Positions 4,275 through 26,242 of a DNA stretch of 40,566 bases are shown one piece after another. Each line of letters starts with the position of its first letter. The first letter of the stretch is position 1. Made by a program: the position numbers and the translations under genes. The notes beneath the pieces were generated by a model. That model saw only the letters and a list, made by a program, of their open reading frames with translations, was not told where the DNA came from and did no database searches. Source of the DNA: Hydrogenophaga sp. (lineage in GTDB: Bacteria > Pseudomonadota > Gammaproteobacteria > Burkholderiales > Burkholderiaceae_C); the NCBI RefSeq assembly GCF_028698005.1, contig NZ_JAQVEJ010000007.1, positions 1 to 40,566 on the forward strand, in the 5' to 3' direction.

Positions 4275-4449
4275 GACTTCAATATCCTTCATTGAGCAAA
4301 TCGGTGGTGCCTGTGGCACTTATATCGGCAAAACCCGTACAAGACCCGGCTACCTTGCCATTTAGATAGGGATGCCGGGCCCAGGTTCAAGCGGTGTGTC
4401 TTTTTTCGGACAGATGTGGGGTGGGGGGTGGCCACGCGCTGAATCCATG

Positions 4450-4475
4450 GCCCCCACGCTCCGCCGCTGGCGCGG
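4450..4475. repeat. Partial copy of a GC-rich dispersed repeat
   Basis: The 13-mer GCCCCCACGCTCC at 4450-4462 is identical, in the opposite orientation, to 25282-25294 inside the palindromic insert of glpK, and it lies just beyond the DUF3108 stop codon. The match is short, so common descent is a suggestion. The remainder of the 203-bp spacer (4275-4477) holds a T6 run near 4398 and no gene that I can see. Confidence 0.35.
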
Positions 4476-4477
4476 GG

Positions 4478-24646: not shown

Positions 24647-26242
24647 TCAGGCGGCCACCGTCTGGCGCACGGCATGCTCCCACTCGGCCATGCGTTCGGC
24701 CGCGCGATCGCGCGAAAGCGTGGGGTAGAACGTGCGGTCGGCACGCCACTGGCCGGCCAGTTCCTGCAGCCCGGTATAGAGGCCGCACTGCAGGCCGGCC
24801 AGGTAGGCCGCACCCAGCGCGGTGGTCTCGGTCACCGCCGGGCGCACCACCGGAATGCCCAGCAGGTCGGCCTGGATCTGCATCAGCAGGTCGTTGACGC
24901 TGGCACCGCCATCCACCCGCAATTCGGACACCGGTACGCCGCCGGCGGCCATGGCGTCGCGGTTCATCGCCTGCAGCAGGGCCGCGCTCTGGAACGCGAT
25001 GCTTTCCAGCGCGGCGCGGGCGATGTGGGCCATGGTGCTGCCCCGGCTCAGGCCGACGATGGCGGCACGCGCCTCGGGCTGCCAGTACGGCGCGCCCAGG
25101 CCGGTGAAGGCGGGGACCAGCACCACCCCCCCGGCGTCCGGCACGCTCTCGGCCAGGGCCTGCGCCTCGCTGCTGGAGCGGATCGCCTTCAGGCCGTCGC
25201 GCAGCCACTGCACCACCGCCCCTCCCATGAAAACGCTGCCCTCCAGCGCGAACTGCGGCGGGGAGGCCAGCCCCGTGGCGGGGAGCGTGGGGGCACCGGC
25301 CCCGCCGCCGGGCCGCCCCAAGGCGGGGCCAGCCCCCCCGGGGGGGAGCGAGCCACGCGCAGCGGCACCCACCTGCGCTACCGCCGTGGTGATCAGCCCG
25401 TTGCTGCTCGTCTGGAAGCGCTCGCCCGTGTGGCTGAGCAGGAAGCAGCCCGTGCCATAGGTGTTCTTGGCCATGCCGGCCTTGAAGCAGGCCTGGCCGA
25501 ACAGCGCGCTTTGCTGGTCGCCCGCCACGCCCGCGATGGGCAGGCTCGTGCCCAGCAGCTCGGGCAGGGTGTCGCCGAACAGGGTGCTGGAGGGCAGTAC
25601 CTCGGGCATCATCGCCGCCGGTACCCGCAGCGCCGCCAGCAGCCCGCTGTCCCACTGGCGTGTCTGCAGGTCCAGCAGCAGGGTGCGCGAGGCGTTGCTG
25701 TGGTCGGTGGCATGGACCGCGCCCCCGGTCAACTGCCAGATCAGCCAGCTGTCGATGGTGCCGAACGCCAGCTCGCCCGCTTCGGCGCGCGCGCGTGCGC
25801 CCGGCACATGGTCCAGGATCCAGGCGATCTTGGTGCCGGAAAAATAGGGGTCGATGCGCAGGCCGGTCTTGTGCAACACGGTCTCGGCCAGACCCTGCTC
25901 GCGCAGTGCCGCGCAGGCCTGGGCAGTGCGCCGGTCCTGCCAGACGATGGCGTTGTGGACCGGCCGGCCCGTGCGGCGCTCCCACACCACCGTGGTCTCG
26001 CGCTGGTTGGTGATGCCGATGGCGCGGATGCTGGCCGCCGCCAGGCCGGCCCGGTGCAGGGCCTCGCGTGCGGTGGCCAACTGGCTGTTCCAGATCTCCA
26101 GCGGGTCGTGCTCGACCCAGCCCGGCTGGGGGTAGATCTGGCGGAGCTCGCGCTGGGCCATGGCCACGATGCGGCCGGTGGCATCAAAGACGATGCTGCG
26201 CGAGCTGGACGTGCCCTGGTCGAGGGCCAGCAGGTAACTCAT
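24647..26242 (-). CDS. glpK: Glycerol kinase with in-frame repeat insertion
   Basis: 531 residues, about 35 longer than usual. It phosphorylates glycerol to glycerol-3-phosphate. FGGY-kinase signatures are clear: [20 protein letters not shown] at the N-terminus, [64 protein letters not shown] and [19 protein letters not shown]. Residues 293-327 interrupt the conserved passage between GLITTAVAQ and [19 protein letters not shown]. They are encoded by a GC-rich palindromic repeat (25262-25366) that keeps the frame open. The fold on both sides is intact, so the enzyme is probably still functional, with an exposed loop; this needs testing. It is divergent from glpD (97 bp). Confidence 0.93.
25262..25366. 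repeat. Palindromic GC-rich repeat inserted in glpK
   Basis: 105 bp that contain three inverted repeats: CCCCG/CGGGG around TGG (25271-25283), GGCCCCGCC (25298-25306) with GGCGGGGCC (25322-25330), and the self-complementary run of seven C and seven G (25333-25346). The piece GGAGCGTGGGGGC (25282-25294) recurs inverted at 4450-4462. Exactly 35 codons are added, with no stop codon in the glpK frame. Confidence 0.75.

Follow-up and report, generated by a model that had tools for sequence, protein, structure and literature searches.

How a glycerol kinase gene that otherwise looks intact has come to hold 105 bp of palindromic DNA within its reading frame, and what becomes of the enzyme, is the question raised by the window, i.e. 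the whole 40,566-nucleotide stretch of Hydrogenophaga sp. DNA analysed here.

The insertion in glpK

The glpK product matches the family profile TIGR01311 with 681.4 bits (cut-off, 590.35), so that the gene looks intact. The insert contributes 35 stop-free codons (residues 293–327, AAARGS...GLAS), and the 531 residues of GlpK compare with 497 in five of the six insert-free relatives measured and 498 in the other, bearing out the first-pass annotation on the added codons, their freedom from stops and the length of the protein. The inverted repeats that it had reported were located as three pairs of arms in or at the insert (25289–25313/25315–25339, 25265–25283/25300–25318 and 25259–25275/25324–25340), which are 76–82% complementary. 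It had also placed them in a highly conserved passage; this holds for the flanks, whereas at the precise point of insertion there is a turn whose sequence varies. The sense strand of the element is the plus strand of the window, so that the copy is antisense to glpK. The features are as follows.

24647–26242, minus strand: glpK, glycerol kinase of 531 residues, including the insert
25262–25366, plus strand: in-frame insert of 105 bp, a partial and a nearly full unit of a dispersed palindromic repeat
25262–25294, plus strand: incomplete preceding unit that closes with the conserved tail GGAGCGTGGGGGC (25282–25294)
25298–25330, plus strand: hairpin 1, with a 9-bp stem (25298–25306/25322–25330) round the conserved 15-nt loop GCCGGGCCGCCCCAA
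25333–25346, plus strand: hairpin 2, a C run followed by a G run
25347–25366, plus strand: hairpin-3 region, the terminal tail of the unit being missing here
4438–4477, minus strand: probable remnant of the element, with hairpin-3 region, tail and start of the next stem (by eye)

A dispersed repeat with three hairpins

A BLAST search of the genome with 116 bp returned 52 matches at E ≤ 1, own copy included. Thus the insert is multicopy, and the first-pass reading of a REP-like element stands, in that a dispersed palindromic repeat lies in frame inside glpK. From the aligned copies, the repeat unit is about 81 bp long and consists of a variable stem round the conserved loop, the C-run/G-run hairpin, a small third hairpin and the tail. 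The units are often found in tandem, and the window copy consists of an incomplete unit and, after it, one that lacks its tail. The G-poor bases behind the tail are read as the ends of genes that face it, with their final and stop codons, and not as a feature of the element.

A covariance model was built from 25 units, the window copy among them, which has to be borne in mind when reading its E-values for that copy (1.7e-4 in the genome, 2.2e-6 in the window). With the best 150 of 5597 candidates scored, the model gave at least 40 matches at E ≤ 0.01 in the genome, grouped into 27 sites. A survey with stricter filters, in which the best 76 candidates per genome were scored, found matches at E ≤ 1e-5 in 36 of 36 genomes of the genus (own included) and in one of 24 genomes from other families of the order. 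An exact-pattern scan led to at least 119 named loci; the pattern demands a perfect core, and these loci are therefore not a random sample of copies. Among the matches listed, 112 of the 119 belong to Betaproteobacteria and seven are without class assignment, and the model matches within them span 50–111 nt (mostly 66–86) with a G+C content of 0.64–0.89. Bordetella genomosp. 4 gave a match with E 5.8e-9. An Rfam search of nine loci up to E 1 returned only microRNA-family matches below the gathering scores, all in one locus (L011) and away from the element.

The spacing of tandem units in the own genome is 81, 84 or 87 bp, plus one value of 168 bp; an array interrupted by an N gap is not included. 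A period that is always a multiple of three holds for this genome, but it was dropped on account of the spacings of 82, 83 and 86 bp in another one (G004).

The remnant at 4438–4477 (about 40 nt) adjoins the stop codon at which a minus-strand reading frame ends and is scored weakly by the model (E 0.39). The 13 bases of the insert that had been noticed in inverted form at 4450–4462 are confirmed and lie within it, and a probable truncated second copy accounts for them.

The palindrome and its covariation

Folding of the insert on its own gives a structure no more stable than those of dinucleotide-shuffled versions (z +1.14, with 171 of 200 doing as well), and a crude k-mer score rates 33 of the window's 2698 stretches of 105 bp as equally palindromic. 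With a G+C content of 88% in its DNA, palindromicity alone would thus prove nothing. What raises the insert above chance is the existence of homologous copies in the genome, the covariance-model matches and the covarying stems among copies. In the first stem, 24 distinct copies show changes on both sides at eight of the nine pairs and changes on one side only at none; 94.4% of the cells are paired, and cells changed on both sides number 48 against 14.3 in shuffles. Four of five covariation measures exceed all 500 shuffles; the fifth (further pair types, 16) is not above them, 121 of the 500 being as high.

The same picture is obtained from 131 distinct stems of named Betaproteobacteria among the matches listed. 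At positions 2–8, Watson–Crick pairs make up 759 of 917 (319 expected), while both G-T (15, with 101 expected) and A-C (39, with 125 expected) are rare, and 64 of the 131 stems are perfect. Drift at the RNA level would pass through G-U pairs, yet G-T is rare; from the stem sequences we infer that both arms are renewed together at the DNA level, an argument weakened by the shared ancestry of the copies. The two sense-oriented GlpK copies differ in the stem by a single matched base pair (CAGCCGTTC/GAACGGCTG versus CAGTCGTTC/GAACGACTG).

Relation to known repeats

The Beta-proteobacterial repeat element (BRE; Hot et al. 2011, PMC3110155) is described as a G+C-rich repeat with units of 75–91 bp, arranged in tandem with few bases between copies, usually intergenic but with some copies entirely within coding sequences. 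The present element, a G+C-rich unit of about 81 bp spaced at 81–87 bp, resembles it in size, and the tandem habit and the intragenic copies are common to both. Both are spread over Betaproteobacteria, Bordetella and Comamonadaceae included; the genera shared are Bordetella, Polaromonas, Rhodoferax, Acidovorax and Delftia, together with a member of the Rhodocyclaceae. To judge by taxa, size, tandem habit and intragenic copies, the element is most probably BRE. The intragenic copies and their reading frames, as well as the GlpK case, are analysed here but not in the section on BRE of PMC3110155.

The palindromic elements of Rickettsia and Wolbachia (RPE and WPE; RPE of about 100–150 nt) are reported in frame inside protein genes (PMC4316617, PMC4224334, PMC3733652). 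As here, palindromic repeats sit in frame inside conserved genes, a likeness of kind and not of sequence family, whereas their host group is unrelated to the present hosts, which are G+C-rich. The GTAG/CGTC REPs, as far as described in PMC3733652, lie mostly downstream of genes and in some cases inside ORFs, as does the present element, and uvrA is a target of both; they differ in having units of 20–40 bp with a tetranucleotide tag instead of about 81 bp with three hairpins. From RAYT-associated REPs and REPINs the element is set apart by the lack of a convincing copy next to 16 RAYT-like loci of the genus. Palindromic repeats within genes are therefore already known from the literature cited (RPE/WPE, REPs, BRE), and the GlpK case adds to them. 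A literature search by title and abstract opening found no report of a GlpK insertion by a palindromic repeat.

Filled, empty and decayed sites in GlpK

Among 60 relatives, 45 have a GlpK at E ≤ 1e-60 (the window's included). The insertion is absent from 28 of 30 GlpK loci and present in the window and in one further genome (G014); relatives do not, therefore, share a non-repetitive insertion at this place, and several filled loci carry the same repeat family. The GlpK cores of G014 and the insert-free G034 share 98% identity, and DNA alignments of the loci display both filled and such near-identical empty sites. A wider set of 399 family genomes yielded GlpK in 354 at E ≤ 1e-100, of which at least 28 besides the window's align in one piece. 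Applied to 31 GlpK loci, the covariance model gave a clear match in the loop of 10, window and G014 included; the loop of L102 gave weak matches alone (E 0.6–0.8), and one match in L118 falls outside glpK. The long loops of L102, L108 and L145 look like decayed remnants. Seven named GlpKs could be aligned in one piece, and three of them also match the element (L301, Hydrogenophaga MAG; L302, Acidovorax MAG; L304, Xenophilus sp. E41), but these genomes were reached through carrying it and are uninformative on frequency. L304 and L101, and likewise L313 and L138, are possibly double entries of one genome.

The inserts of G014 and of L301 are in sense orientation, while that of the window is antisense. 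In L111 and L306 the same turn holds a different G+C-rich insert (PLPREGEGWGGG-like), possibly another family of palindromic repeats. A further GlpK (L066, G003 contig C223) has an unusual C-terminal end, PPPRRFASPP, which may reflect another repeat where the gene finishes.

The loop in the predicted structure

An initial structure model of the window GlpK from three sequences reached a pLDDT of no more than 49.6; the AlphaFold model used here was built with eight (pLDDT 80.8, pTM 0.84). In the latter, residues 294–326 have a pLDDT below 50 and lie between strands 286–289 and 330–337; the surroundings of the insert are of moderate confidence, with blocks of about 60–70 pLDDT. The insert is thus probably a floppy, disordered 35-residue loop in the turn between two strands of the predicted model. 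By sequence, it falls at about chain positions 291–295 of E. coli GlpK (3ezw). The best 50 Foldseek matches of the model are all glycerol kinases. The fructose-bisphosphate site of E. coli GlpK, which we take to lie at about 229–236, and the IIA-Glc site, presumably at about 472–481, are far from the insert along the sequence.

Copies inside other genes and the reading-frame bias

When the 27 sites of the own genome were sorted by the codon-position G+C content of their flanks, a heuristic criterion, eight were apparently inside genes, 15 were called intergenic and four were at contig ends. Three of the intergenic calls (C57, C172, C201) rest on flank strand or a weak coding signal alone; 11 of the 15 intergenic sites are within 34 nt of a stop codon. 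The readable intragenic copies, identified by family matches, are those in GlpK, ValS, two UvrA proteins (C205 and C5), a copper-type P-ATPase, an M20 peptidase and an ABC ATPase, all of them in frame (7/7). A tandem array with an N gap (L077, G000 contig C246) apparently interrupts an acetoacetyl-CoA-synthetase-like gene, as seen by eye, with an unreadable frame.

The named loci hold 154 model matches in 132 sites among the matches listed, and the following counts refer to these. In 26 of the 132 sites the element is in frame inside a gene. Thus, the description of the GlpK insertion as unusual remains valid for the single gene, but the phenomenon itself is widespread among the Betaproteobacterial sites listed. 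At nine of the 132 a reading frame runs for more than 40 nt into the element and is changed, so that not every contact between element and gene is clean. A further 69 lie between genes (52 between genes on one strand, 17 between genes on opposite strands), 14 have a flank that is not clearly coding and 14 are at the edge of the locus.

A scan of 25 of the 26 in-frame ORFs, leaving out L247, which is GlpK (the same as L302), found a known family in 24, L184 being the exception. By reading of the tables, the family matches extend across or to both sides of the insert in 17 of the 25, four of which (L188, L219, L273, L286) rest on a second matched stretch without printed position. The conserved host proteins include HrpA, UvrD, RecQ, PEP carboxylase, PutA, GlmS, biotin carboxylase and a DTW protein. 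By eye, some sites seem to recur between genomes, namely in the M20 peptidase (own C249/L086 and L256) and in a FemAB-like protein (L188 and L286).

The 33 in-frame copies (26 named, seven own) use three of the element's frames 12, 9 and 8 times and the other three 2, 2 and 0 times, although all six are about equally open (in 110–131 of 146 copies). The bias has p = 0.0005, 0.005 with same gene and frame collapsed, and 0.0025 for the 26 named copies alone. Of the little-used frames, the two richest in arginine (0.20 and 0.23) account for 0 and 2 copies; since the third is poor in arginine and yet has no more than two copies, arginine content was rejected as a full explanation. On the basis of these counts, the bias points to translation of the in-frame copies and selection against some of the peptides.

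Insertion history and mobilisation

A quick tree of 111 GlpK rows built without the loop, with 40 of its 106 inner forks open, requires at least nine changes between presence and absence (antisense seven, sense two), each of which may be a gain or a loss. The antisense inserts of several genera share a left junction, AQ[IV] followed by the tail; the window has what looks like a truncated tail. Such a junction could stem from one ancient insertion lost many times over, or from interspecies exchange, rather than from repeated insertion. Accordingly, an ancestral antisense insertion, inherited or recombined and often lost, of which the window copy would be no separate event, is a serious candidate, though we lean against it. 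In its favour, several genera agree with the window in frame and have a similar junction, and remnants begin with the same AQ[IV]. However, the sense inserts of G014 and L301 and the different frame used by the insert of G064 need further events, the window GlpK groups (weakly, support 85–92) with insert-free GlpKs, and AQ[IV], as AQV, occurs in some insert-free proteins too (L134, L153). The alternative concerns history alone and is compatible with a tolerated selfish element.

No defensible target-site duplication emerged from the alignments of filled and empty GlpK sites, and a transposase tied to the element was found neither in the own genome nor in the genus genomes or at the 16 RAYT-like loci. 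The search for a Y1_Tnp gene gave no match in the window's genome, while one is found in 30 of 36 genus genomes, with a single match in 28; the best element match within the 16 loci (3.3 kb each) had E 0.11. Mobilisation by a RAYT was set aside on these grounds, action on distant copies being possible. The RAYT-like loci themselves (L166–L181) have Y1_Tnp beside what looks like gltB, and many show, by eye, palindromes of their own (TGGGGTCAGA).

Weighing the explanations

It is very probable that the insert is a selfish palindrome that entered a permissive turn, where it would be tolerated and translated as a disordered loop. In the mechanism proposed, the 105 bp would be a copy of the multicopy three-hairpin element of Betaproteobacteria, most probably BRE, that may spread to further sites, for the most part directly downstream of stop codons but at times within genes. 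Copies within genes would survive if they preserve the frame, introduce no stop and land in a loop that permits them; the turn between two β-strands of GlpK would accommodate a Gly/Pro/Ala-rich loop without harm to the enzyme. With time, such copies may be eroded by in-frame deletions, or lost. Either slippage that lengthened a low-complexity, G+C-rich loop or an error of assembly, the palindromes being due to chance, would fit the base composition and the indifferent folding of the insert, but the homology to some 40 model matches in the genome (a minimum), the covarying stems and the same repeat family at the same GlpK site of other genomes leave either hardly any credit. Removal of the element from the mRNA, or its bypass by the ribosome, would give a normal GlpK and suit a palindrome lying inside conserved genes, and translational bypassing elements exist as a precedent; a kept frame and a frame preference would be needless if the element were skipped, and the 7/7 in-frame copies and the preference for three of the six frames make this very improbable.

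Domestication had been suggested by the first-pass annotation, together with a possible effect on allostery or oligomerisation; under it, the extra loop would have been selected for some novel property of GlpK, which would explain the kept, stop-free frame. A clade of four rows, of which two are identical and may represent one genome entered twice, also keeps nearly the same insert. Against domestication, the turn is empty in close relatives, including the 98% identical core, species differ in the sequence, orientation and frame of the insert, decayed remnants occur in other genomes, the loop is predicted to be disordered, and many unrelated proteins carry such inserts. Domestication is therefore improbable, if somewhat less so than removal or bypass, and the tolerated selfish insertion is retained, with a loop that would be translated and neutral and a spread that would proceed at the DNA level through the hairpin.

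What the finding means

A general, testable pattern stands behind the GlpK case. We give a little over one chance in three to the broader proposal of a class-wide generator of loops, with about one fifth of the Betaproteobacterial copies in frame inside genes, mostly of known enzyme families, recurrent permissive loops (GlpK, M20 peptidase, FemAB-like) and a palindrome renewed as a DNA hairpin even within coding sequence. The basis for such renewal would be the stem changes in both arms, the depletion of G-T and the single matched pair that separates two GlpK copies. If true, nature would have carried out a replicated experiment on insertion tolerance, and a hairpin-directed mobilising activity would be implied; the stem statistics point to a mobilising process at the DNA level. 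Matched GlpKs with and without the loop, whose cores are 98% identical, make its effect on the enzyme directly testable. The findings suggest that conserved enzymes of many Betaproteobacteria have gained flexible loops from short palindromic repeats, as has been described for Rickettsia and Wolbachia.
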